IMG/VR virus record: IMGVR_UViG_3300047557_000261
Span: 1-20,991 of that record
Source of the DNA: a virus
DNA: 20,991 bases
Direction: 5' to 3' (one strand)
Under the pieces are notes generated by a model that saw only the letters and a program-made list of their open reading frames with translations, was not told the DNA's origin and did no database searches. The position numbers and the translations under genes are program-made. Shown here piece by piece: positions 1 through 18,977 of the stretch; position 1 is the first letter of the stretch, and every line of letters begins with the position of its first letter.

Positions 1-93
1 GATGAAGCTAAGGGTAAAGAGTGGCAGCGAGGATTTGATGCTGCCTATTTTGATAACTTAGATAAAGTGAAGGCTAGGTATGCCAAGCATTAA
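1..93 (+). CDS. C-terminal end of an unidentified plus-strand protein (partial)
   Basis: Frame 1 is open from the first base of the window and ends at a TAA, giving 30 codons. The fragment is polar and helical-looking (it contains KEWQRGFDAAYF and ends in KARYAKH). Nothing here identifies its function. It runs toward the minus-strand late genes, so it belongs to a different transcription unit. The next plus-strand frame starts inside its last five codons, a typical phage overlap. The start lies outside the window. Confidence 0.55.
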   Translation, partial: DEAKGKEWQRGFDAAYFDNLDKVKARYAKH

Positions 94-268
94 ACATGAT
101 GTACAAATGACTGCTAATGATCTACGGATTATATTAGTACTCATTAAGAAAACACCTATCGAGGATGGGCTGTTTCCTTTGTTTGTAAATTTACAGGAGC
201 AGTTTAAAGAGATTAAGTTGAAAGAGCTAGGAGGGAATGAAGATACAATTCCTATGGAGTTATCTTAA
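80..268 (+). CDS. Small hypothetical protein at the convergent boundary
   Basis: This frame encodes 62 residues. The ATG lies 14 nt inside the end of the upstream frame, with an AAGG/AGG-like ribosome site just before it (GTGAAGGCTAGGT). The protein is charged and probably helical, with a short hydrophobic stretch (RIILVLI) near residue 20, and no recognised domain. Its TAA overlaps the TAA of the large minus-strand gene, so the two coding regions share 9 bases. Its reality rests on position, the overlap with the preceding frame and the plausible ribosome site. A spurious frame is possible. Confidence 0.5.
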   Translation: MPSIKHDVQMTANDLRIILVLIKKTPIEDGLFPLFVNLQEQFKEIKLKELGGNEDTIPMELS

Positions 269-3200
269 TCCCTCTAATCTAGCTGCATACTCATACACAG
301 AGGCGTAATCTTTGGCATCTTCAAGGGTTACGCCTTTGTCACGTTTATACATATCATTGATAGCTAAACGTCTTTGTTGAGATAGTCTATTGTATGCCAT
401 CTTATCTACACGTTCTTTGTCCTTAGATGTCATATCACCTTGCACAATAGCACGTGCTGCACTTAAAGCAGTTGACATGTTATTAGACATAGCGACTTTC
501 TTTTCCCTATCTGTCATTGCATTGTATTCACGTGAATCAATACGTGGTATTACAACTTGCTTGATCCACTGTCCTGCTTCTTTAATGACTGCACGATCAT
601 AGATCTTGTCACCAGTAGCACCAAACATTTGATAGGGATCTAGGTTAAGCTTAGCAAACTCTTTCTCTAAATCATTGACACGTGGTACGACACGGAAGCC
701 AGATAAGATATTAAAGAATTCACCTGCACGTACAGGTTCTTCTTCACGTAAGTAACGCACAGCTACAGGTAACTCTTCTTTTAATCCTGGCAGCTTAGCT
801 TTAATCCTATTCATAGCTGCTTCAGATACAATGTCTTCACCAGTGATTACATTGGGATCTCTAGCTAACTGTGACTCACGATCCATCAAGTCAAAGTATG
901 CTAGGAAAGGTTGTCCAGGTTGAATGAATCGACCTGCAAAGTCACCCAAGATCTGTCCCATTGCTTTCTTAAACTTGTCAGCTTCTTTACCTTCACCTGC
1001 CATAAGTTCAGGTAGGCTGTCCAAGATAGTCTTCTGTGTACCTGCAGGCATCTTCATACCTGCTATAGCTTCCATAGCCTCACCTACATTGGCATCTTCA
1101 AACTTACCTAGCTTCATCTTAGCTACAAGATCACCTACAGCTAGCCATGGACCTGCAGGAAAGATAGCACGTACATCAACTGTACTGCCATCCTCGCCTT
1201 GTACGTTGTACCATTCAGTGTCTTGATTCTCCATGCGGTACTTATAGGCTGCATACAAAGCTGCAGTACCTACTGTACCCCTAGAGAACTTCTCTAAACC
1301 TTCCCTATATAAACGATTAGCACCTTCTTGGTCAGTGAGAGCACGTTTACCTGCAGCTAAGACATCAGACATACCAGATGCAGCACCAAAGGGACTATAC
1401 TTGTACTGGAATGCCATAGCATTAGTCATGAACCTTGGGAAGGTAACAAGCAAACTACCACCGGGTAGATTCTCAAAGAAGCTTACAAACTTATTAGCTA
1501 CCCCTTCAGCTTGTGCTTCCATGGTAACCTGTCCCTTACGTGAGGGTTTAGGCATATACGAGAAGGTAGCCTTAAGTGCTTCATCCCCTGCATTCTTTAA
1601 TACATCAGGGGGTATAGTCTTGTCATTGGCAATGAGATCATACATATCAATGCCAACTCTTCTTAGCTGTCTCTCTACACTTGAAGTAAAGACTGCTTTA
1701 CGGAATAGTGCATCTTGTGCTACGTTTAATGTATTAGCTACACGTGCAGCTTTACTTAGCTTTTCATCACCAGATTCTTGTAAAGCACTAAACACTTGCC
1801 TTTGTATAGCAGGATTATCAGCCAGTAATTTATCTACAACTTCAGAAGTAAAGCCTGTGTTCGTTAAATAGGCAGCAGTACCAAAAGCATCTTGAATAAT
1901 ACCTTTCATGCCTTTAGTTAGATCCCCACGTTGGTATGTGCCATCAGCAGCAGTCTTTAATACTTTACCAGTCTCGTAGATCGTACCCTCTAAAAGTCTA
2001 GATGCAGCATCTAAAGTAAGAGCACCTGTAGAACCGTAGATGTTCCTAACTGTAGTACCAATACTGGACACTACAAGTGCCTTAGATTCTTTCTCAAGAC
2101 GTTTAATAGCATTACCAAACATGCCCATAGCGGATGTCATGTCTTCACTACGACCGTACATCTGCTTGATTAATGCATCTGTCTCTGGATCTAAGTCACT
2201 TAATCTACCTAAGACACGAGCAAGTGCACTATAGCCTTGCATCACATTAGCTGCATCACCTACAGTAGCCAAGGAAGCCTGGGCAAATTCAGCAGGGGTT
2301 ACATTAGCCCTCTTCAGTGCAGCTTCTAATGTGATGTCATCAATCTTATCGGTAGCCATAAACAAATCACGTACTGCTTCACTGACTGACTGCCCCTTCT
2401 TAGGACGGAAAGTAGGGTCAGCAATCATGACGTACTTGGCTACATCAATAGCCTTACGATTAATGTCTGTACGTATCTGTGCTTGTGTTAGTTCTGTCTG
2501 GGGAGACAACTCATCAAGAGTCTTTCTACCTTCAAAGATATCAAACTGCTTTAAGATATCTTCCATCTCACGATCAAAAGCTTGTGTAACTTGCTGTGTA
2601 GCCTGATTACCTGCAGGTGTACGCTTAGATGCAAGTTTATCTTCTAAATCTTTCTTATACGTGGCAGGCTTACGTGCTACACCTGCAGCTTCAAAGCCAC
2701 TAAACACAGAGCCTAATACACCTGCTGTAGCTGCCTCTGTCAGACTAACGGGACCTTCTGCAGCCCCACTCTCAATCCTAATACGTTGCTGTACAATATT
2801 AGATCCAGCAGATACAGGTGCTTCTACAGCGGCAGCAGTTACACCTGTACGTACTGGGGTTGAGAATGCTTTCTTAAGTAGTCCACGAGCAGCTGCATAC
2901 TTACCGAATGATCCTATACCTACTCCCAAGTAAGTAAGTGGATCACTGGCAATAGCCATGGTAGTTTCAGCGATAGGTCTTATACCTTCCTGCCCACCTT
3001 TACTAATAGAAAAAGGTACTCTGTCCCACAATTCAATAGCTTTACCTGCCTTCTCTGCATCTGCAGGTTTAGCATTAGCAATCCAGTTTAGTTCAGGTAC
3101 AGCATTAAGGGTTGTGTTATATTCAATCTTACGCATCTCGGTAGCAAACCGTTTAGCGTAATCTTCATTTGACTCATCTTTCTTCTGCTCTCCCATCTTG

Positions 3201-3526
3201 CCAAATCTAGCTGTCATATAATCTTTAATGACATTAAAGTTCTCTGGCTTCTGGTACAAGTCAGTGAAGTCTACTTTATTCTCACGTTCATATCGTTCAA
3301 TGTCAGCACGTTCTTCCCTCTGCTTAGCCATAATGCCCTTAGTGATCTGTGTCACTTTAGCTGCAGGCTTACCATATTCTCTGAATACAGTAGCAGGCTT
3401 ATAAGCAGCTAGATCAGTAGCAGTGCCACTGACTTCTAGCTTAGGTACAGTATCCCATTTAACTTCATCATCTTTCTTGGGTACTGCAGTAGGGATAGGG
3501 TCCCACTTAATATTTTCATCTGCCAT
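260..3526 (-). CDS. Large internal virion / DNA-ejection-type protein
   Basis: This protein of 1088 residues is the last gene of the late cluster. The N-terminus carries two short related motifs (IKWDPIP near residue 6 and VKWDTVP near 22), followed by charged helices to about 170. Residues 186-290 form an Ala/Gly-rich, weakly hydrophobic region containing SDPLTYLGVG and GVLGSVFSGFEAAG. A second hydrophobic stretch in the C-terminal half includes PGGSLLVTFPRF. Very large helical proteins with membrane-active segments, encoded near other virion genes, are typical of podovirus internal proteins (T7 gp15/gp16-like role) that enter the cell with the DNA. I infer such a role from size, composition and position. 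I see no lytic transglycosylase motif. The ATG overlaps the preceding stop as TAATG, so translation is probably coupled. Confidence 0.7.
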   Translation of the reverse strand: MADENIKWDPIPTAVPKKDDEVKWDTVPKLEVSGTATDLAAYKPATVFREYGKPAAKVTQITKGIMAKQREERADIERYERENKVDFTDLYQKPENFNVIKDYMTARFGKMGEQKKDESNEDYAKRFATEMRKIEYNTTLNAVPELNWIANAKPADAEKAGKAIELWDRVPFSISKGGQEGIRPIAETTMAIASDPLTYLGVGIGSFGKYAAARGLLKKAFSTPVRTGVTAAAVEAPVSAGSNIVQQRIRIESGAAEGPVSLTEAATAGVLGSVFSGFEAAGVARKPATYKKDLEDKLASKRTPAGNQATQQVTQAFDREMEDILKQFDIFEGRKTLDELSPQTELTQAQIRTDINRKAIDVAKYVMIADPTFRPKKGQSVSEAVRDLFMATDKIDDITLEAALKRANVTPAEFAQASLATVGDAANVMQGYSALARVLGRLSDLDPETDALIKQMYGRSEDMTSAMGMFGNAIKRLEKESKALVVSSIGTTVRNIYGSTGALTLDAASRLLEGTIYETGKVLKTAADGTYQRGDLTKGMKGIIQDAFGTAAYLTNTGFTSEVVDKLLADNPAIQRQVFSALQESGDEKLSKAARVANTLNVAQDALFRKAVFTSSVERQLRRVGIDMYDLIANDKTIPPDVLKNAGDEALKATFSYMPKPSRKGQVTMEAQAEGVANKFVSFFENLPGGSLLVTFPRFMTNAMAFQYKYSPFGAASGMSDVLAAGKRALTDQEGANRLYREGLEKFSRGTVGTAALYAAYKYRMENQDTEWYNVQGEDGSTVDVRAIFPAGPWLAVGDLVAKMKLGKFEDANVGEAMEAIAGMKMPAGTQKTILDSLPELMAGEGKEADKFKKAMGQILGDFAGRFIQPGQPFLAYFDLMDRESQLARDPNVITGEDIVSEAAMNRIKAKLPGLKEELPVAVRYLREEEPVRAGEFFNILSGFRVVPRVNDLEKEFAKLNLDPYQMFGATGDKIYDRAVIKEAGQWIKQVVIPRIDSREYNAMTDREKKVAMSNNMSTALSAARAIVQGDMTSKDKERVDKMAYNRLSQQRRLAINDMYKRDKGVTLEDAKDYASVYEYAARLEGLR

Positions 3527-4920
3527 TACTGGATCTCACGAGTTCCATCAGAGTATTCAATGACTTTCTTACCTTTGTCTGGACCTGACTGTATAGTGCC
3601 TGTGCGTACAATAGTCTTAGCTTGTGTACCACCTGAACGTGCAGCAGCTACACCTGAAGGCTTAGATGCTTGTGGTGCAGCAGATGCCTGTGCAGCAGCA
3701 GTAGCTTCCTCTACATTAAAGAATACTGGCTTATTGTTTTCTATCTTAGCCCCAGGTATCGTGGGAATAGCATCAAGTACCCACTTAGGATATGCACCAG
3801 TAGTAGGATCTTTATATCTGTCTACAATCAATTGAACTTGAGCATGGCCTAATGCAGTACCATACCTCGCAGCATAATCATTTGTAGGTGTAAACACTCG
3901 ATCTACACCACCTTGCTGATTAGGCACATTAGTGAAATGAGCACTGCCAATCTTTGTAGCTGCTTGTGCAGCACCTGCATGGAAAGCACGACTGAGTAAA
4001 GTACTACCTGTTACTGTAGGTCCTTTATCCCCATCCTTCTCTTTCTCAGGTGCTCTGGTCATACCAAGTAAACTCTGACCTTGCCTGACTAGTGCAGCCC
4101 TTTCTTTTCCATCCTTAGATTCAGCAGCTTGATTGAAATAGCTATAAGCCCTCTCTTCAAACTTCTGTCTCTCTGTCTTATCTTTATCGGGTTTACCGAA
4201 GTCTGCACTACTTATCTTGTTAGCAGATGCTAACCTCTCCTTAAGTGCTACCGTGGAAGGGTGATTAGGGCCATACTCAGGGTCCATCTCAAACTCATAC
4301 ACTTGTGTTCTTAGTGCATCAATCCTGTCTGCCATCTTGACTTGCTTATCGGACATCAATGAGCTTAGATTTACAGTAGCTGCAACGGAAGGTATCTCTG
4401 CCAACTTAGTCTTATAGATATCCTCCATGCCTACACCTGTCTGTGCAGAGGCAGACTTAAGACCCTGTTCAAATGCACGAGTACGTAAACCAAATGCACC
4501 TGTCATCTGTTCTTCACTTGGTTTAGCTGCAGCCCCAGGCTGTAACGTAGTAGCCTTTTCACGGAAGGCAGCAAGTGTAGGTATTTCCTGCCCAGGTTCA
4601 ACCTTAATTAATTCAGCTGCACGAGCAGGTGTTAGCCTCTCTTTCATCTTAGTGAGACTTTCTACAATCTCAGGGGCAGTACCACTAGATAAAGCAGCTA
4701 CAATCTGATTCTCATCTGTAATACCGTATGCCTTCATCTTACGTGCAAGATCATCAATCTCTTCTCCACGTTTCTCTGCACGTAACTTTGATTTCTCTCT
4801 TTCTTTTAAAAGATTATTCCAACGCATCGTAGCCTCATCACGAAGCTCCTTATCACGTTCCTCAATATCTTTCTGTGCTTGAGTAGCAAAGCCAGTTACA
4901 AATGAAGCTAGGAAGGACAT
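3526..4920 (-). CDS. Putative internal virion protein with N-terminal coiled coil
   Basis: This protein has 464 residues. A short amphipathic N-terminus (MSFLASFVTGFATQ) precedes a strongly charged helical segment, about residues 14-66, rich in E, K and R and likely coiled coil. The middle is mixed helical. The C-terminal 60 residues are Ala/Ser/Gly-rich and end in a small basic and polar tail. No enzymatic motif was seen. The ATG follows a GAGGTAA ribosome site in the 17-nt gap after the preceding gene, and the stop overlaps the next start by one base. Paired with the 1088-residue protein and following the repeat protein, it probably belongs to an internal core or ejection complex, but this is inference from context. 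Confidence 0.6.
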   Translation of the reverse strand: MSFLASFVTGFATQAQKDIEERDKELRDEATMRWNNLLKEREKSKLRAEKRGEEIDDLARKMKAYGITDENQIVAALSSGTAPEIVESLTKMKERLTPARAAELIKVEPGQEIPTLAAFREKATTLQPGAAAKPSEEQMTGAFGLRTRAFEQGLKSASAQTGVGMEDIYKTKLAEIPSVAATVNLSSLMSDKQVKMADRIDALRTQVYEFEMDPEYGPNHPSTVALKERLASANKISSADFGKPDKDKTERQKFEERAYSYFNQAAESKDGKERAALVRQGQSLLGMTRAPEKEKDGDKGPTVTGSTLLSRAFHAGAAQAATKIGSAHFTNVPNQQGGVDRVFTPTNDYAARYGTALGHAQVQLIVDRYKDPTTGAYPKWVLDAIPTIPGAKIENNKPVFFNVEEATAAAQASAAPQASKPSGVAAARSGGTQAKTIVRTGTIQSGPDKGKKVIEYSDGTREIQ

Positions 4921-4937
4921 AGACTTACCTCAGGGTA

Positions 4938-5492
4938 TTATTGGATGTTATTGGGTGTAATATTGGTAGTGGGGGCCATTAGGCTATTAGTAGTCGGTGC
5001 CATAGGGCTTACAGGGGCCATTAGGCCACGGTATTCAGCTGGCATACTAGCCTCTTGTGATAGCTGTTCTGAGGGCATTTCAGGTGCCATAGAGACACGT
5101 TGAACAACTTCCCTTGCTACAGACCTAGGAATCATTTGCTCCTTCTGTAGCTTCTTATAGGACTCGACATATGGTGTGTTAGTTGAGTCAGCTACAAGCA
5201 TCAGTAGCTCACGTACAACTGGATTTATAAGCACACCTACGTCGAGAGAGTGAATACCATTCATGGCAGAGGAAGTGACAATAGTCTCTGCTATATTTTC
5301 AATAGATACTTTAGCTTCCATAGCAGCGAGTATCTTATCCTCTGTCTCAGGGTCTAATAGCTTATCTGTGTAATAGGCAATAGCATCTTCTACCGATGCA
5401 AGCATAGGGGGATTCTCCCACGGTACATTGCGGGGAGCACCTGTAAGTGACATACCGGGAATAGGGCCAGTAGCAAATGCATTCTCACTCAT
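4938..5492 (-). CDS. Conserved-type phage protein of unknown function (GLMAP tail)
   Basis: This protein has 184 residues. The N-terminus is Pro/Gly-rich (PIPGMSLTGAP, VPWENPP). Residues about 32-130 are predicted helical, with a central VGVLINPVVRELLML segment. The C-terminus is a flexible Pro/Met/Thr tail repeating LMAP (GLMAPVSPMAP, SLMAPTTN). I associate this layout with uncharacterised proteins in the ejection cluster of marine phages, but I cannot name a family. The gene overlaps the upstream 69-codon gene by 8 nt (ATGAGTGA), which supports this start and coupling. It may be a minor virion or scaffold component. Confidence 0.6.
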   Translation of the reverse strand: MSENAFATGPIPGMSLTGAPRNVPWENPPMLASVEDAIAYYTDKLLDPETEDKILAAMEAKVSIENIAETIVTSSAMNGIHSLDVGVLINPVVRELLMLVADSTNTPYVESYKKLQKEQMIPRSVAREVVQRVSMAPEMPSEQLSQEASMPAEYRGLMAPVSPMAPTTNSLMAPTTNITPNNIQ

Positions 5493-5694
5493 TGTCTTTA
5501 TTTCCCTTATACTCCATTCTCTTCATACGGATATCTGCAATGAAGTTAGCAATAAGATTAAAGGTATCATCTTGACCCATATTACCTTTAATCTTAGCTT
5601 TCTTAGGTGCAAGCAATCCTTTACCTTTAGGCTTAACTGCTGCATTAAGCTTTTCACTTACAAGTGATTCAATCCGCTTTATATATTTATCCAC
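5485..5694 (-). CDS. Small basic hypothetical protein, GTG start
   Basis: This protein has 69 residues, is lysine-rich, and has a helical N-terminus (about residues 1-22), a basic hinge containing GKGLLAPKKAK, and a second helix. No fold is recognised. The start is GTG, 8 nt inside the end of the 1382-codon gene, preceded by a GGAG nine bases upstream. The only later ATG candidates (residue 39 onward) would remove half the protein. The GLLAP motif resembles the GLMAP tail of the next protein, so the two may share a binding partner (inference). Confidence 0.6.
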   Translation of the reverse strand: MDKYIKRIESLVSEKLNAAVKPKGKGLLAPKKAKIKGNMGQDDTFNLIANFIADIRMKRMEYKGNKDNE

Positions 5695-8600
5695 CAGTAT
5701 CTACTCCAGCTATATTAATGTCTACACCAGCAATACCTTGAATGAGTGTATTGAATGTGGCATCATCGACACCTAATGCTTCTGCGGTTAGTCCTGCATT
5801 ACTGAAGTCAATAAGATCTAAAGGTATGCCACTGGCACTTGATAGGTTTGTAAATGATTTAATAATTGAACTTGCTGCATCCACAGCAGTCTGCCCTAAT
5901 GTAGTCTTACCTAACAGAGTAGCAGTTAAACCACCAAGAGACTGAAGAGCGGCAGCTGTACGTTGAGCCTTAGCAGCTTCTACTGCAGCTTCTTTCTGTA
6001 AAGTAGCTACAGCTAAACGATTCTCACGATCTAAATCATTTTGTCCAGCTTGATATGCATACTGCATACTATCCCTATAACCTTGCCACTGGTTATTATA
6101 CTCAGCAAGGGTGCTTTGCAATCCAATCTGAGCATTGAATTGATTAGCTTGATTGATAGCTACAGTATCGGCAGTAGCTATATTCCTCCTCCACTCAGCA
6201 TTAGACTGATCTATCACAAGTCTTTGTTGGGCATTGAACTGGTCCCTGGCATTAGCTTGTGCAACATTGAATTGTACGATTGCATTTTCCTGACCGGCAT
6301 TAAACTGTGACATTGCATTGATTTGCTGCGTGTTGAATTGGTTTGTCTGTGTTGTTAATGACGCATAAAACTGATCAACTTGCATTGTACTAGTGGCATT
6401 GAACTGCGATGCAGCATTAGTAGCTGCAGCATCCGTAAAAATACTTTGAGCTATTTGTTGAGCTTTCAATACTTCTATTTGCTGTGCATTAGCTAGATTC
6501 TGAGAATCCATCTGTAGGAAGGCTTGAGCATTTTGAACTGCAGCTTGCTGTCTATTATTAAGATTAGCCAAGTTCATTGTGGCATAGGTAGCAGCATTAG
6601 CCAGAACGGTAGCTTGCTCAGCATTTAAATTAGCAACATTCATTTGCTGTACAAACTGTGAATTCTGTAAGGCAGTCTGTTGCTCAGCATTAAAATTTAA
6701 ATTGGCAATTTCAGATATTTTAGCTGCATTGATAACTGCCGTTTGTTGCTTGTTAGTTAGCTCCTGTCCCTTTAAAGCAGCTTCAATCTGCGCATTGGCA
6801 AGAGCTGTTTGCTGCTTATTGGTTAAGTTTTGTACCTCAATTGTCATTGCATTGGTTGTGTTAAACAACCGTGTCTGCTGTTCATTTGTCAATTCAAGCT
6901 GTCTCTCTTGCAGCTGATTGGCAATATTAAACATATTAACTTGCTGCTTAAGATCCATCTCCTTGCCGAGCATGTTAGTTCTAGCAATGAATTCTTGCAC
7001 AACAGCATTATTCTGTGTAGTTAAATTAATATTGTTTAGCTCTGCATAACGTGAAGCATTTAATAGTTCTGCTTGAGTTTTACTGTCTAGCACTTTACCT
7101 TGTAGTGCAGCACGTAATTGGGCATTAGCTAGCTCTGTTTGTTGCCTTGAAGATAGGTTTTGAATATCTATCTGTAATGCCTCAGTAGATTTCTGTAGTG
7201 CAACTTGCTGAGCATTTGTTGTATTAATGTCATTAACTTCGGCATAGCGAGAGGCATTAAACAATGCAGTCTGCTGCCTCACATCCATTGCCTTACCTTC
7301 TAAAGCTGCACGTGATGCAGCATCTTGTAGGAAAGCTTGTTGTTTTGCAGAGGCATTAAACTGTGCAGCTTCAAAGTTTTGAGTGCTTTGTAATACTGCC
7401 ATTTGCTGTTCATTACTTAGTTCTTGCCCTACTAATGCAGAACGTACTTGTAGATTCGCAATCGCTGTCTGTTGTATATTAGACAAGTTTTGAAGTTCTA
7501 CTTGAAGCCTTTCATTACTTCTTTGCAATGCAACTTGTTGTGCATTATTTAGATTAATGTTGTTAACTTCTGCATAACGTGCAGCATTAGCAAGTGCAAC
7601 TTGTGTTTCTATAGCCAGTGTTTTTTCCTGCAAAGAAGCACGTAATTGAGCATTAGTAATTACAACTGCTTGCTGATTAGTTAAGTTCTGCATCTGTAAT
7701 GAAAATGCATTTGAACTATTCTGCAATGCAGCTTGCTGTCTATTATTTAAATTTGTTAATTCTATGTTCTGCTGAGCAGCAGCATTTGATAGGGCAACCT
7801 GCTGACGGTTGTTTAAGTTGGCTAAACCCATATCAGCAAAAGTCTGTGCGTCCTTTGCTGCAATCGGTATGGCTGACTCCATAGCAGCTTGTACAATGGC
7901 TGCACCTGCCATTGAACTATTACCAAGGCCACGTGCTGCCATAGCAGCATTAGCAGCTCTTATGGCACCTGAAGCCCATGCAGGTGTGCCGTTATTGAAT
8001 TGCTGCATCAATGAAGACATCTGCCCCTGTATAGTAGCCTGTGGATTAACTTCACCCTGGGCAGCAGTTGCCAGTGCAGCCTGAGAAAATGTACCTTGTT
8101 GAGCGGTTGCTATAGCTGCCTTATCTAGTTCTTGCATAGTTACAGCAATGGCTTGAACAGCCTCTGCTGTGCCTATGATATCTCTAGCATTAACAAGTTC
8201 ATTAGCACCAACGGTACCTACAGCAGCACGTAAATCTGATTCGTATGCAGAAGTAGCAGCCTGTGCAGTTGGATATGCGTTAAGCTTAGCTGCATTTTGT
8301 ACGGCCATAGCCTTTAACTCTGCAACTTTTGTAGCAGGCAAATCGTAGTAGTCTTCTGCTGTAGCTATTTCACCAGCTGCTATTTTTGCTGTAACAGCCT
8401 CTAGCTTGGATTGGAAATTACTTTGTTGTGTAGTTGCTTGTTCTGCATTAAGACCCGTAGTGTCTATGCCTTTAACTAATTCATTATCTGTAACAGTACC
8501 TTTAGCTACGGCAATCTTACCAACATCAGCGGCTGCAACACCCGTAGCAGTAGGTGTAGCACCAGCAAGCTTAGCTGCTTCAGCAGTAAAAGCTTTATCT

Positions 8601-9835
8601 GTTGTTACAGCACCTGCCTTAGTAACACCTCCTACATCTGCCAATGTAGCTGCTGTAGCCAGTTCACCCTCTTGCACCGTTCTAGCTGCAGTAGGTCCTA
8701 CTTGTGCAGCTGTACCTGCCACAGTGCCTGCTAATGCCTCTTTAGACACAGTACCAGTAGCTGCTTGCATCTCTGCAGATACCGTTCCTGTAGCACCTTT
8801 AAGCTTTGCCATCTCTTCTGCAGTACGTTCTGCAGTTGTTGCAGCCTCTATCTTTTGTGCAGCTGTACCTGTTGGTAATGCAGCAGTTGCAGCTGCACCT
8901 GTGCGGGCAACACCTGCCTTTTCAACTTCACCTGCACCTCCTTGACCTGCAATAAGCTGACCAGAATCCGTTGCAATACGTTGAGCAGTTACACTAGGAA
9001 CACCTGTAAGTGTAGGAGCACCTGTTACGGGATTCGTTGATACAGGTGAGGTTGTTTTAGTGGCAGTTGTAGGTGTGGTTGTAGATGCTACAGTTGTAGG
9101 TGTGGTTGTAGATGCTACAGTTGCAGGTGTGGTTGTAGATGCTACAGTTGCAGGTGTGGTTGTAGATGCTACAGTTGCAGGTGTGGTTGTAGATGCTACA
9201 GTTGTAGGTGTGGTTGTAGCAGGTGTAGTTTGTTTAGAAGCATTTGTTTGTTTTTCTGCATATTCAGGGCTTCCCAACAAATACTGCCTAATTTGAGCTG
9301 CACTTAACCCTGTATTATCCCAATAAGACAATCCACCTGCGTCAGGTTCTCTGCCAAGTAACTCACGATACAATGCAGTAATTTCATTTGCACCTGCATC
9401 ATCTACTGCTGCCGTGGTTGTGGGAGCTGCAGGTGTAGTTGTAGGTGCTACAGTTGTAGGTGCTACAGTTGTAGGTGTGGTTGTAGGTGCAGCAGTTGTA
9501 GGTGTAGCAGCTACAGTGGTTGTAGGTGTAACAGCTGTGGGTGTGGTTGTAGATGCAGCAGCTACAGGGTTTGCTGCTTCCCTAGCTAATGCCTGATTGT
9601 CAAGCTCTTCTTCCGTAGCTAATCTTCTTTCTCCTGCTATTCCACCCACTGCATACTTTTTCTTCTTTGTTACAACACCACCACGTGCCATGTACTTATC
9701 TAACACAATACCATAACGATCTGCCATGGCTGGATCTGATCTAAGAAATGTTTCAAACATATGCATAGGACCGTCATAGCCTAGCTTACGTGCGACAATC
9801 TCTTTTTGTTTAGATGTAAATTCTTTACTTGGCAT
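5687..9835 (-). CDS. Giant modular repeat protein (DUF4214-like domain, 22- and 11-residue helical repeats)
   Basis: This protein has 1382 residues. In order: a small N-terminal region (1-90) with paired GG motifs (YMARGGVV, YAVGGIAG); a Thr/Pro/Val/Ala stalk (about 91-142); a DUF4214-like domain (about 146-194; LYRELLGREPDAGGLSYW); a second Thr/Pro stalk of near-identical 9-residue units (about 203-260); an Ala/Thr/Gly region to about 460 with GTVSxEAL-like motifs that recur to about 600; a helical lead-in containing GLGNSSMAG (about 600-672); 21 contiguous 22-residue repeats (673-1134); eight 11-residue QFNA repeats plus a 22-residue spacer (1144-1242); and a short C-terminal domain. No signal peptide was seen. 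It lies between the endolysin and the ejection-type genes, so it is probably a virion protein. Large proteins with this Asn/Gln repeat style occur in marine phages and are, to my knowledge, functionally uncharacterised. Fibre, internal core or envelope-spanning roles are all possible. Confidence 0.75.
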   Translation of the reverse strand: MPSKEFTSKQKEIVARKLGYDGPMHMFETFLRSDPAMADRYGIVLDKYMARGGVVTKKKKYAVGGIAGERRLATEEELDNQALAREAANPVAAASTTTPTAVTPTTTVAATPTTAAPTTTPTTVAPTTVAPTTTPAAPTTTAAVDDAGANEITALYRELLGREPDAGGLSYWDNTGLSAAQIRQYLLGSPEYAEKQTNASKQTTPATTTPTTVASTTTPATVASTTTPATVASTTTPATVASTTTPTTVASTTTPTTATKTTSPVSTNPVTGAPTLTGVPSVTAQRIATDSGQLIAGQGGAGEVEKAGVARTGAAATAALPTGTAAQKIEAATTAERTAEEMAKLKGATGTVSAEMQAATGTVSKEALAGTVAGTAAQVGPTAARTVQEGELATAATLADVGGVTKAGAVTTDKAFTAEAAKLAGATPTATGVAAADVGKIAVAKGTVTDNELVKGIDTTGLNAEQATTQQSNFQSKLEAVTAKIAAGEIATAEDYYDLPATKVAELKAMAVQNAAKLNAYPTAQAATSAYESDLRAAVGTVGANELVNARDIIGTAEAVQAIAVTMQELDKAAIATAQQGTFSQAALATAAQGEVNPQATIQGQMSSLMQQFNNGTPAWASGAIRAANAAMAARGLGNSSMAGAAIVQAAMESAIPIAAKDAQTFADMGLANLNNRQQVALSNAAAQQNIELTNLNNRQQAALQNSSNAFSLQMQNLTNQQAVVITNAQLRASLQEKTLAIETQVALANAARYAEVNNINLNNAQQVALQRSNERLQVELQNLSNIQQTAIANLQVRSALVGQELSNEQQMAVLQSTQNFEAAQFNASAKQQAFLQDAASRAALEGKAMDVRQQTALFNASRYAEVNDINTTNAQQVALQKSTEALQIDIQNLSSRQQTELANAQLRAALQGKVLDSKTQAELLNASRYAELNNINLTTQNNAVVQEFIARTNMLGKEMDLKQQVNMFNIANQLQERQLELTNEQQTRLFNTTNAMTIEVQNLTNKQQTALANAQIEAALKGQELTNKQQTAVINAAKISEIANLNFNAEQQTALQNSQFVQQMNVANLNAEQATVLANAATYATMNLANLNNRQQAAVQNAQAFLQMDSQNLANAQQIEVLKAQQIAQSIFTDAAATNAASQFNATSTMQVDQFYASLTTQTNQFNTQQINAMSQFNAGQENAIVQFNVAQANARDQFNAQQRLVIDQSNAEWRRNIATADTVAINQANQFNAQIGLQSTLAEYNNQWQGYRDSMQYAYQAGQNDLDRENRLAVATLQKEAAVEAAKAQRTAAALQSLGGLTATLLGKTTLGQTAVDAASSIIKSFTNLSSASGIPLDLIDFSNAGLTAEALGVDDATFNTLIQGIAGVDINIAGVDTGG
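5704..5707 (-). promoter_or_regulatory. Ribosome site for the GTG start at 5694
   Basis: GGAG on the minus strand lies inside the end of the 1382-codon gene, nine bases before the GTG. It supports the upstream, non-ATG start of the 69-residue protein. Confidence 0.4.
6110..6406 (-). repeat. 11-residue QFNA repeats in the giant repeat protein
   Basis: Residues 1144-1242 consist of 11-residue units starting QFNA (variants QFYA, QFNT, QFNV), six in a row, then a 22-residue element starting QSNA, then one more QFNA unit. The exact 11-residue spacing is half the period of the preceding array. Hendecads favour a straight or slightly right-handed coiled coil. Confidence 0.85.
6434..7819 (-). repeat. 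Array of twenty-one 22-residue repeats
   Basis: Residues 673-1134 divide without gaps into 21 units of exactly 22 residues. The typical start is NLxNxQQxAL and the second half is Ala/Asn/Gln-rich. The units are diverged, not identical. Three sub-types recur: one ending in A-L-x-G-K or Q, one containing NASRYAEVNNI, and one ending like LQVELQ. As a single helix the array would be about 69 nm long (462 residues at 0.15 nm). Confidence 0.9.
9081..9215 (-). repeat. Five 27-bp tandem repeats encoding a Thr/Pro stalk
   Basis: Five adjacent 27-bp copies encode the nine-residue unit TTTPATVAS (or TTTPTTVAS). They are identical except for one C/T-type difference in the first and last copies, and partial copies flank them. 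Because 27 is a multiple of 3, gain or loss of copies would change stalk length without breaking the frame. Confidence 0.95.
9254..9400 (-). other. DUF4214-like domain in the giant repeat protein
   Basis: Residues about 146-194 carry the hallmark order of DUF4214: a helix with LYRELLGREPDAGGLSYW, then GLSAAQIRQYLLGSPEY. The family is known mostly from secreted or surface proteins of bacteria, and its function is unsettled. Here it sits between two Thr/Pro stalks. Confidence 0.8.
9415..9567 (-). repeat. Imperfect Thr/Pro stalk repeats (upstream of the DUF4214-like domain)
   Basis: Residues about 91-140 are built from degenerate TTTP, PTTVA and APTTT units. The DNA shows irregular 9- to 18-bp repeats of the same codon set as the array at 9081-9215 but less homogeneous, which suggests an older expansion. 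Confidence 0.8.
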
Positions 9836-11528: not shown

Positions 11529-12131
11529 TTAAGCCTCCAGTTTTAATCCAGTAAGATCTAGTTCTTCACCAACAACACCAACAGGGAATGAATTAAAGCT
11601 CAGGGATGTCCGAACAACATCACCCTCAACAGTAGGAACCATGTGTGTTAAGTTAGAAGGAAACAATATAAGCTTTCCTTCAGCAGCTTCAAACCACCAT
11701 GATTCACTGTTCCATTCATTCCACTTTTCAGGTGGGAACTTGATCTGTTGATAACCATCTTTGTAGAAGTAAATCTTATCGTTTTCATTGGTTTGTACAT
11801 AGAACACACCACTGACATACGAATTAGGATGTGCATGTTTGTGATGAAACTGTCCTGGCTCACTGTAGTTAACCCAGGACTGTGTGATACGTAGGTTCAC
11901 ATCATGTTTAGGGTTGACAGTGGCTTTGAAGTATTCATCAACACAATCTTCCATCCAACTACGTAAGGAAGTCATGCACTGATTACGAAGTACAAAGTTA
12001 TCTTTACTGGTTCTGTTGCCCATGTTAGGACGTTGTTCCAGCGTTAATAGAAAGTCTTTTTCTTCTTCAGTCAATGAGCGATCAAGATTAAAGAATCCTA
12101 CTGGTTGGGCGAATAAGCCATGCAAGTTCAT
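11529..12131 (-). CDS. 2-oxoglutarate/Fe(II)-dependent oxygenase family protein
   Basis: This protein has 200 residues from the ATG at 12131. An upstream in-frame ATG at 12182 would lie inside the preceding gene, while 12131 gives a TAATG junction. The core motif is FHHKHAHPNSYVSGVFYVQ (His96-His101 region), followed by LFPSNLTHMVPT with His163 and VVRTSLSFN with Arg174. This is the pattern of the putative 2OG-Fe(II) oxygenase family frequent in cyanophages and other aquatic phages. His in the first motif and His163 are the likely iron ligands, and Arg174 the likely 2-oxoglutarate contact. The substrate is unknown. Its place among fibre genes suggests modification of a virion or surface component, but host metabolism is also possible. 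Confidence 0.85.
   Translation of the reverse strand: MNLHGLFAQPVGFFNLDRSLTEEEKDFLLTLEQRPNMGNRTSKDNFVLRNQCMTSLRSWMEDCVDEYFKATVNPKHDVNLRITQSWVNYSEPGQFHHKHAHPNSYVSGVFYVQTNENDKIYFYKDGYQQIKFPPEKWNEWNSESWWFEAAEGKLILFPSNLTHMVPTVEGDVVRTSLSFNSFPVGVVGEELDLTGLKLEA
11534..11538 (-). promoter_or_regulatory. Ribosome site GGAGG for the GTG start at 11528
   Basis: GGAGG lies five bases before the GTG, inside the last codons of the oxygenase gene. It fixes the non-ATG start of the 107-residue protein. Confidence 0.6.
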
Positions 12132-12388
12132 TACCCAATTGCCTCTTCTATCATTCGTATTTCTCCTGTAAGTTTCTCCCAATCTTCATCAAGCCAGATC
12201 GTGGGGATTGACTCTTCAAACTCTTTGATCTTGTCCATCACCCAGTAGACCTCATCTATTGACGGACAGGGGCGTGGATCATCCCAACGTGTGAATTGAT
12301 TGTTTGTGATTTCCCATTTAGCGCCAGGGCGAAGCATGTGCATCGCTGTATCAATACCGAGAAAGCGGTATACCTTTGTGTTTTCCAT
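12131..12388 (-). CDS. Small tail-associated protein, XkdW-like
   Basis: This protein has 85 residues and is acidic, Trp-rich. The motif MHMLRPGAKWEIT, then a WDD turn and a Pro-Ser-Ile-Asp-Glu helix, resembles the small XkdW-like proteins that follow fibre genes in aquatic phages (pattern LRPxAxW ... W.d ... P...EI). These may be fibre assembly factors, but this is not proven. A GAGG lies four bases before the ATG. The stop overlaps the oxygenase start. Confidence 0.55.
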   Translation of the reverse strand: MENTKVYRFLGIDTAMHMLRPGAKWEITNNQFTRWDDPRPCPSIDEVYWVMDKIKEFEESIPTIWLDEDWEKLTGEIRMIEEAIG

Positions 12389-17990: not shown

Positions 17991-18977
17991 TTAAGCTGCT
18001 AGCGCAACCCGATCTCTTGAAGTAGATCGACGAGGCACTAATACGGTTCTCTTGTGTGAGTACAAATCACTAATAGCACCGTAGTTAAATTGTGTCGTTG
18101 TTACTGTTGAAGTCTCAGTGTATATAGACATCTGGAATTGAGTCACTGGTACAACGATGCCTACATTGACTTGTACATCCCCGATAGCAGTAGTTGCATC
18201 TACACCTGTGACTTCAACAATGAGGTTAGAACCTGCAATGTTGACAGTGCCTATGTCACCTGTAGCAGCTACACCTGAGGGCTGTACAATGGTTCTAGTG
18301 AGTGTAGTAACATCCCCTACTGCACCAGTTCCCTGTACACCTGTAACCGTCACAGAAGGCTGAATAGCGATGACTGTTACATCACCTACTGCACCTGTAG
18401 CTTCATTGCCAGTGGGGGATACTGTAGCCCCACCTGTAGCAGTTGCAGTGCCTACATCCCCTGTAGCTGTGTTACCTGTAGTAGATGTTACCGCTGAAGC
18501 AAGAGCACTGACTGAGCCTAAGCCTGTAGTGCCAGCTACACCTGTAACTAAGATAGCACCGATGGTACTAACAGTCACTGAACCTAAGCCAGTAGTACCC
18601 TCTACACCTGTAACTGCTACGCCTACATTAGGTGTTACAACCGTTCCTACTGCACCTGTAGATTCTGTACCTGTAACTACAACTACAGCAGGTAGCGATA
18701 CAACAACAGTGCCTACAGATCCAGTTGCTTCAGTGCCAGTGACTGCTGCATTGGCACTTAGTGTGATATTGACTGTGCCTACTGAACCTGTAGCAGATAC
18801 GCCCGTTACAGGTACATTAGTTGCACCTAAAGACCACGTATCATATTGATCAGTGCCATATACGCCTAAGCCATATATTGCACCTGTAGCTCCCCCTGCC
18901 CCAGAGACTTGACCATAACTATCAGTCCCATAGACACCTGTACCATATAGAGCACCTACGAGGCCAGGGTATGCCAT
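17991..18977 (-). CDS. VTG-repeat virion protein
   Basis: This protein has 328 residues. The N-terminus has two copies of a Tyr/Gly motif (YGTGVYGTDSYG, YGLGVYGTDQYD). Residues 57-273 hold about ten repeats of 20-24 residues with the pattern VTGxxATGxVGTVxV followed by a hydrophobic spacer. The C-terminal 55 residues are non-repetitive and end in basic SHKRTVLVPRRSTSRDR. The product is probably an extended beta-rich structural protein such as a fibre or beta-solenoid. GGGAG precedes the ATG in a 13-nt gap. Position between head and adaptor genes implies a virion role, but the exact site is unknown. Confidence 0.7.
   Translation of the reverse strand: MAYPGLVGALYGTGVYGTDSYGQVSGAGGATGAIYGLGVYGTDQYDTWSLGATNVPVTGVSATGSVGTVNITLSANAAVTGTEATGSVGTVVVSLPAVVVVTGTESTGAVGTVVTPNVGVAVTGVEGTTGLGSVTVSTIGAILVTGVAGTTGLGSVSALASAVTSTTGNTATGDVGTATATGGATVSPTGNEATGAVGDVTVIAIQPSVTVTGVQGTGAVGDVTTLTRTIVQPSGVAATGDIGTVNIAGSNLIVEVTGVDATTAIGDVQVNVGIVVPVTQFQMSIYTETSTVTTTQFNYGAISDLYSHKRTVLVPRRSTSRDRVALAA
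18159..18809 (-). repeat. About ten VTG repeats
   Basis: Units of about 20-24 residues occur at residues 57-273. The shared core is VTG, two variable residues, ATG or TTG, then xVGTV or xLGSV. Units are diverged at both protein and DNA level. Confidence 0.85.

Follow-up and report, generated by a model that had tools for sequence, protein, structure and literature searches.

The closest described counterparts of the protein analyzed here are the core proteins of HMO-2011-type podophages (phage1322_25 of HMO-2011, CRP1_gp35, and CHOED_013), which have homologous anchors, a homologous array between them, and the same gene order. Those carriers of such homologs that have been described are podophages that belong to the HMO-2011 type or lie near it (PMC9038755, PMC6918029, PMC6256558). 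Ejection genes of podophages follow the order gp14-like (181-240 aa), gp15-like (431-982 aa), and gp16-like (609-1337 aa) (PMC8954989). T7 and P22 share this order, with gp13 or P22 gp14 in front, and P22 gp14 (phrog_651) adjoins gp7. In cobaviruses, a GNAT gene that has been likened to T7 gp13 adjoins the genes for internal virion proteins (PMC6775973). Helical units of 11 residues are known from two other phage systems. In siphophage tape measures, 11-residue repeats marked by Phe/Trp can vary in number (PMC3271669), which illustrates that a phage structural protein can acquire and shed such units (PMC3271669, and PMC5099701 for TP901-1). The H protein of phiX174 forms a tube of solved structure, an 11-residue helix with a lumen lined by Asn, Gln, and Arg, for DNA passage (PMC7354561).

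The window, i.e. the whole 20,991-nucleotide stretch of viral DNA that was analyzed, encodes on its minus strand a repeat protein of 1382 aa (ORF 5687-9835). Its phage is a relative of the HMO-2011-type podophages. Whereas HMO-2011 and most relatives have an array of 223 residues, that of the window measures 553, and the N-terminal part is different. The parts of the gene are as follows.

5687-9835, minus strand: repeat protein gene (1382 aa), an ORF with homologs in 26 phage records and at least about 600 viral-contig stretches
9611-9835, minus strand: N-terminal module, residues 1-75 (FTSKQKEIVARKLGYDGPM...ARGGVVTKKKKYAVGG), which recurs at the N terminus of many homologs
9311-9382, minus strand: partial DUF4214 match, residues 152-175 (22.5 bits, cut-off 23.2 bits), followed by Thr/Pro-rich linkers
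9064-9219, minus strand: 27-bp tandem repeat (5.8 copies, 98% identical, detected by Tandem Repeats Finder) encoding a Thr/Pro linker
7838-8092, minus strand: conserved N anchor, residues 582-666 (QGQM..LMQQF...TPAWASGAIRAANAAMAARGLGNSSMAGAAIVQAAMESAIPIA), from alignment
6428-7840, minus strand: zone 1, 22-residue units with a higher-order period of 110 residues (5 units), residues 666-1136
6209-6427, minus strand: zone 2, 11-residue units (QFNAxQxNAxx) with Phe and Asn spaced 11 apart, residues 1137-1209
5969-6208, minus strand: conserved C anchor and following helix, residues 1210-1289 (QSNAEWRR...NNQWQGYRD), from alignment, with a predicted long helix

HMO-2011, CRP-1, CRP-2, CRP-9, CRP-13, CRP-345, and HTVC115P are among the phage records with homologs, and more distant homologs occur in Vibrio phage CHOED, Aeromonas MQM1, Sinorhizobium phiM6, and Pseudoalteromonas Slicky01. 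Two alignments define the family anchors as QGQ...PAWA...ARGLGxSS...ESALPIA before the array and QSNAxWRR...LWQ..RD after it. Because each anchor is encoded in at least about 600 IMG/VR stretches, the family is, by this sequence census, very common. The N anchor is also present without any array in distant relatives (contigs L145-L148, vB_Pun_Y3, and StenR_269).

The N-terminal halves of the homologs are highly variable, with matches to DUF4214, dockerin, RTX, EF-hand, or PASTA domains. These are mostly calcium- or cell wall-related, and RTX-type calcium-binding repeats were found in the N-terminal part of at least one homolog. The Thr/Pro linker repeat of the window has the appearance of a young, length-variable spacer, in contrast to the old and diverged array in the same gene.

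Searches of PHROGs and Pfam with the repeat protein and the three proteins encoded after it returned only the sub-threshold DUF4214 match and chance-level matches, and sequence and profile searches of the same proteins against PDB sequences returned nothing convincing. Profile comparison and HMM searches found no significant similarity to P22 gp7, gp20, gp16, and gp26 or to T7 gp13-gp15, with scores for the known ejection proteins lying within those of shuffled controls. We have therefore not filed the repeat protein in any of these families. A by-eye motif (GLGSTAT...AP..GQQ) had pointed to homology with P22 gp7, which was not supported by hhalign, two-way HMM searches, or shuffled controls.

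Register and length of the array

Across positions 6434-7819 (residues 673-1133), the protein can be written in rows of 22 residues that align without any gap, and lag 22 gives a mean BLOSUM62 score of +0.95, as compared with 0.03 or less in 200 shuffles; at a lag of 44 it is 0.89. This confirms the gapless 22-residue array of the original prediction, and the register runs past its ends on both sides: in-register units begin at residue 666 and the register is kept to residue 1234. The accompanying description of a composition rich in Asn and Gln with few charges also held (30% Asn + Gln and 13.5% charged over residues 653-1268), as did the statement that similar repeats occur in marine phages, where the homologs of HMO-2011-type phages have them.

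The array has two zones. Zone 1 (residues ∼666-1136) is built from 22-residue units with a consensus around N-L-S-N-x-Q-Q-A-A-L-A-N-A. Zone 2 contains six Phe residues exactly 11 apart (Phe1145, Phe1156, Phe1167, Phe1178, Phe1189, and Phe1200), a run that reached at most four in 2000 shuffles. A ladder of Asn residues, one every 11 positions, keeps a single phase across both zones from 673 to 1234, and across the family, Asn fills 64% of the ladder in zone 1 and 73% of it in zone 2. Tandem Repeats Finder detected no DNA-level tandem repeat in the array and hence no recent tandem amplification, so that the periodicity is kept at the protein level while the DNA has diverged.

From the PIA motif of the N anchor (residue 657) to the QSNxxWRR motif of the C anchor (residue 1210), the distance in the window is 553 residues, which equals 25 × 22 + 3. 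With anchors placed by profile HMMs, this distance is 3 modulo 11 in all 201 homologs (176 distinct arrays) and 3 modulo 22 in 195 of them, the other six being off by one 11-residue step. The rule was equally strict in smaller sets (12/12 sequences by exact motif, and 108/108 with profile anchors). Twelve inter-anchor lengths were found (146, 168, 179, 212, 223, 311, 333, 421, 443, 553, 663, and 773 residues). These homologs are related and hence are not independent samples, yet twelve different lengths all obey the rule, which rules out a single inherited event.

Six of the twelve lengths, accounting for 166 of the 176 arrays, fall on a ladder of 223 + 110k. The 110-residue block is also conspicuous within long arrays: that of one contig (L099) scores 2.65 at a lag of 110 vs 0.89 at lag 22, and units five apart are identical at 12.3 of 22 residues vs 6.1 of 22 for neighbors. 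In a quick tree built from the C-terminal region, parsimony needs 32 changes of array length, whereas shuffled labels need 46-58; because this region recombines, we take the tree only as evidence that length changed repeatedly. Array length thus differs only by whole 11-residue steps, mostly by 110-residue blocks. The strong structural constraint that had been proposed behind the fixed unit length is borne out by the 11-residue register, and the repeat protein is a putative modular 11-residue phage structural protein with an unusually strict, quantized length rule. The register rule and the 110-residue ladder together make a sharp and testable statement on how this protein is built and how it evolves.

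Gene neighborhood and apparent exchange between genomes

Three genes follow the repeat gene on the same strand.

4938-5492, minus strand: 184-aa protein, first of the trio (xAPIPGxSLTxxPxxxPWExPP), in the same place in relatives
3526-4920, minus strand: 464-aa protein, second of the trio, in the same place in relatives
260-3526, minus strand: 1088-aa protein, third of the trio, all-helical in a poor model

We compared this order in phages of Roseobacter, SAR116, SAR11, Vibrio, Aeromonas, Sinorhizobium, and Pseudoalteromonas. The repeat gene is followed within about 2 kb, sometimes after one or two small genes, by a trio whose products have about 165-190, 300-615, and 817 aa upwards, and in most relatives examined the late strand ends after the trio. 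Since the AlphaFold model of the 1088-aa protein is too poor to interpret (pLDDT 46), the identity of the trio is read from gene order and size. In SAR11 phage HTVC115P, an HlyC-type lysine acyltransferase (PF02794, E 1e-15; L005:10636-11085) is encoded right after the repeat gene.

Genes for fibers and lysis lie upstream of the repeat gene, which is grouped with the trio. At 11529-12182, surrounded by tail and lysis genes, the window also encodes a 2OG-Fe(II) oxygenase-like protein (PF13759, E 2e-20).

The array-less relatives that share the N anchor have informative neighbors. In Pseudoalteromonas phage vB_Pun_Y3 and in contigs L147 and L148, the array-less gene directly precedes a GNAT-type gene (phrog_1249, E 5e-27 and 5e-8; phrog_651, the P22 gp14 family, E 5e-9). 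In Stenotrophomonas phage StenR_269, an annotated virion-associated RNA polymerase follows it at a distance of a few genes, and L148 has tail families phrog_10775 and phrog_5107 upstream, as in the window. Trio order and size, together with the GNAT-type and RNA polymerase neighbors, support by position the placement of the repeat gene in a predicted internal-virion (ejection) cassette, although the identity of the neighbors is itself inferred. Through this context, a protein that lacked annotation becomes a specific candidate for DNA-delivery machinery. In vB_Pun_Y3 (L228, from 12150), the cassette that opens with the array-less relative is closed by a gene of 10,266 bases annotated as DdrB-like ParB.

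The likeness to P22 gp7 and T7 gp14 consists of a GNAT-type neighbor, followed by genes of gp20/gp16- or gp15/gp16-like size, and, by eye, a G-L-G-S-S/T motif at the equivalent place. The window protein differs from both in being several times larger and in having a long array, and the similarity is not significant.

Contig L113, the closest relative in which an array of different length can be read, was compared with the window over positions 1-6811. Its DNA is ∼95% identical over positions 1-5500, trio included, and identity falls to 72-76% inside the repeat gene. The array of this relative measures 333 residues vs 553 in the window, which is thus 220 residues longer. The drop in identity indicates a likely recombination boundary between trio and array. 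Contig L094, in contrast, matches the repeat protein of the window with 100% identity from residue 1 to residue 1126. From these two patterns, arrays and N-terminal parts seem to have been swapped between genomes within the gene, in register.

Helical organization of the array

Not a single proline is present in 49,940 array residues of 201 homologs, whereas Pro makes up 6.2% of their N-terminal parts, and this supports a helix-only constraint on the predicted fold of the array. We modeled residues 560-1382 as a monomer with AlphaFold2 using 28 sequences (mean pLDDT 60.9, with 70-85 in the array core; pTM 0.37). With modest confidence, each zone 1 unit is predicted as a helix of ∼16 residues plus a turn of ∼6 residues, and long uninterrupted helices appear only in zone 2 and beyond. 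Of 1006 units, 96% have Ser, Thr, Asp, or Asn at position 10 and 87% have Gln at position 13, with Leu or Phe at position 9, so that positions 9-13 look like a classical helix N-cap box in sequence; position 6 is Gly in 21% of these units.

The hydrophobic moment of the array peaks at 98.1-98.2 degrees, which we considered as proof of a hendecad coil and rejected, since this peak is the sixth harmonic of any 22-residue repeat and, being forced by the period, offers no independent evidence for such a coil.

An appreciable possibility, though short of an even chance, is that each 22-residue unit is a capped short helix plus turn and that the units stack side by side as a helical solenoid forming a compact scaffold in place of a rod, a structural reading compatible with any of the functional readings below. 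The one helix and one turn per unit in the AlphaFold2 model, the N-cap-type residues at position 10, the Gly at position 6, and a weak resemblance to designed helical repeats in a fold search all favor such a stack. Conversely, the 1006 units (about 22,000 residues) contain no proline, loop length does not vary, the model has a low pTM, and the Asn ladder holds one phase through both zones. In addition, units are gained in both odd and even numbers (10, 15, 20, 25, 30, 35), which would flip an antiparallel stack. Fold searches gave no PDB match with E below 0.001 and, in a second search, mixed helical proteins with Z below 8, which is uninformative for helical repeats. In BFVD, a DUF4214-named protein of an uncultured phage (49% identity) is plainly a homolog, and matches to tape-measure proteins are scattered, with E-values at chance level.

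The continuous 69-nm helical rod of the original prediction is thus partly supported: the lack of proline, the Asn ladder, and the register rule favor it, and the short helices of the AlphaFold2 model and the N-cap motif speak against it; we consider a continuous helix and a chain of capped helices both plausible. Compact globular domains, which had been named as the outcome that would speak against a rod, did not appear in the AlphaFold2 model, whose modest quality still leaves room for them. The suggestion that a single helix would be comparable in length to a cell envelope is weakened. A straight inter-anchor helix rising 1.5 Å per residue would measure 33 nm in the commonest class, 83 nm in the window, and up to 116 nm in the longest homolog, and the helix of a long array would extend far beyond a Gram-negative envelope.

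Candidate roles in DNA delivery

We infer, tentatively and at slightly less than an even chance, that the repeat protein of this HMO-2011-type podophage belongs to the internal virion (ejection) proteins and is ejected or acts as a DNA conduit. Its gene would close the late operon along with those of three more ejection proteins (184, 464, and 1088 aa). The N anchor and C-terminal region of the protein would flank a modular, Asn/Gln-rich helical array that would grow and shrink by whole units, of 11 residues in the C-terminal zone and 22 in the main zone, most often by 110 (5 × 22). The protein would leave the virion through the portal, and several parallel copies may then assemble into, or around, a DNA conduit across the cell envelope, in which the array would be the adjustable segment of the delivery apparatus. 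This suggests that the array may be a modular part of the viral DNA-delivery machinery of abundant short-tailed ocean viruses. We found no virion proteomics for the HMO-2011-type group in the literature.

The best analog in mechanism would be the phiX174 H tube. Like the window protein, H has 11-residue (hendecad) helical units and is rich in Asn and Gln, and it delivers DNA by means of a tube; compared from sequence alone, the composition of the window array would fit an amide-lined tube of this kind. The H tube differs in having 121 residues, with three hendecads followed by heptads (PMC7354561). No sequence match to H was found, and the sole PDB match was unrelated (E 0.19).

The absence of significant similarity to known ejection proteins and the poor model of the 1088-aa protein stand against the preferred reading, as do two further observations. 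Arrays of 443-773 residues are too long for a straight envelope-spanning tube, and in P22 the gene directly before the gp14/GNAT-type gene encodes the tail needle, no ejection protein. If extended, the 83-nm helix of the window could not merely bridge the envelope, so that long forms would have to fold back, wind, or reach beyond it. A more specific version, which we consider doubtful, is a length-quantized helical conduit in short-tailed phages, i.e. a multi-copy tube or sleeve lined with Asn and Gln, whose 110-residue modules (each about 16.5 nm if extended) would be exchanged by in-register recombination.

The main functional rival, because of this P22 gene order, is a tail needle or thin multimeric fiber with the array as a helical shaft of variable length and the N-terminal domains as its tip, which we judge unlikely. 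The position before a GNAT-type gene is that of gp26 in P22, itself a helical, rod-like protein, the variable N-terminal domains and Thr/Pro linkers would suit an exposed tip, and register-keeping helical units and length variation are common among fibers. The stem of the phi29 head fiber is described, in the title of a work cited in PMC11440229, as a supercoiled triple helix-turn-helix motif. Yet the P22 gp26 profile scored only 10.3 where shuffles reach 16.1, gp26 gives tropomyosin- and filament-type coiled-coil matches and the repeat protein none, and the fiber and lysis genes lie upstream whereas the repeat gene keeps company with the trio. We know of no report of an 83-nm external fiber in HMO-2011-type phages.

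A ruler resembling a tape measure, or an inner-core scaffold, that would fix how large an internal structure becomes is improbable: array lengths do change by whole units, and the 11-residue Phe spacing of zone 2 recalls siphophage tape measures, with 83 of 109 distinct homologs having a run of six Phe/Trp, but this run is one aromatic short of the published seven (PMC3271669), a length reached in one homolog, the main zone differs in its 22-residue units, 110-residue blocks, and lack of aromatic markers, no sequence match to tape measures was found, and a phage group that is short-tailed (PMC6918029) has no tail tube to measure.

The natural variants, whose arrays span 146 to 773 residues from anchor to anchor, form a series at hand with which to ask whether length measures anything. 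Near the capsid end of the window, a 328-aa protein (17991-18977) has VTGxxATGAVGTVxV-like repeats of its own, unlike the helical array.
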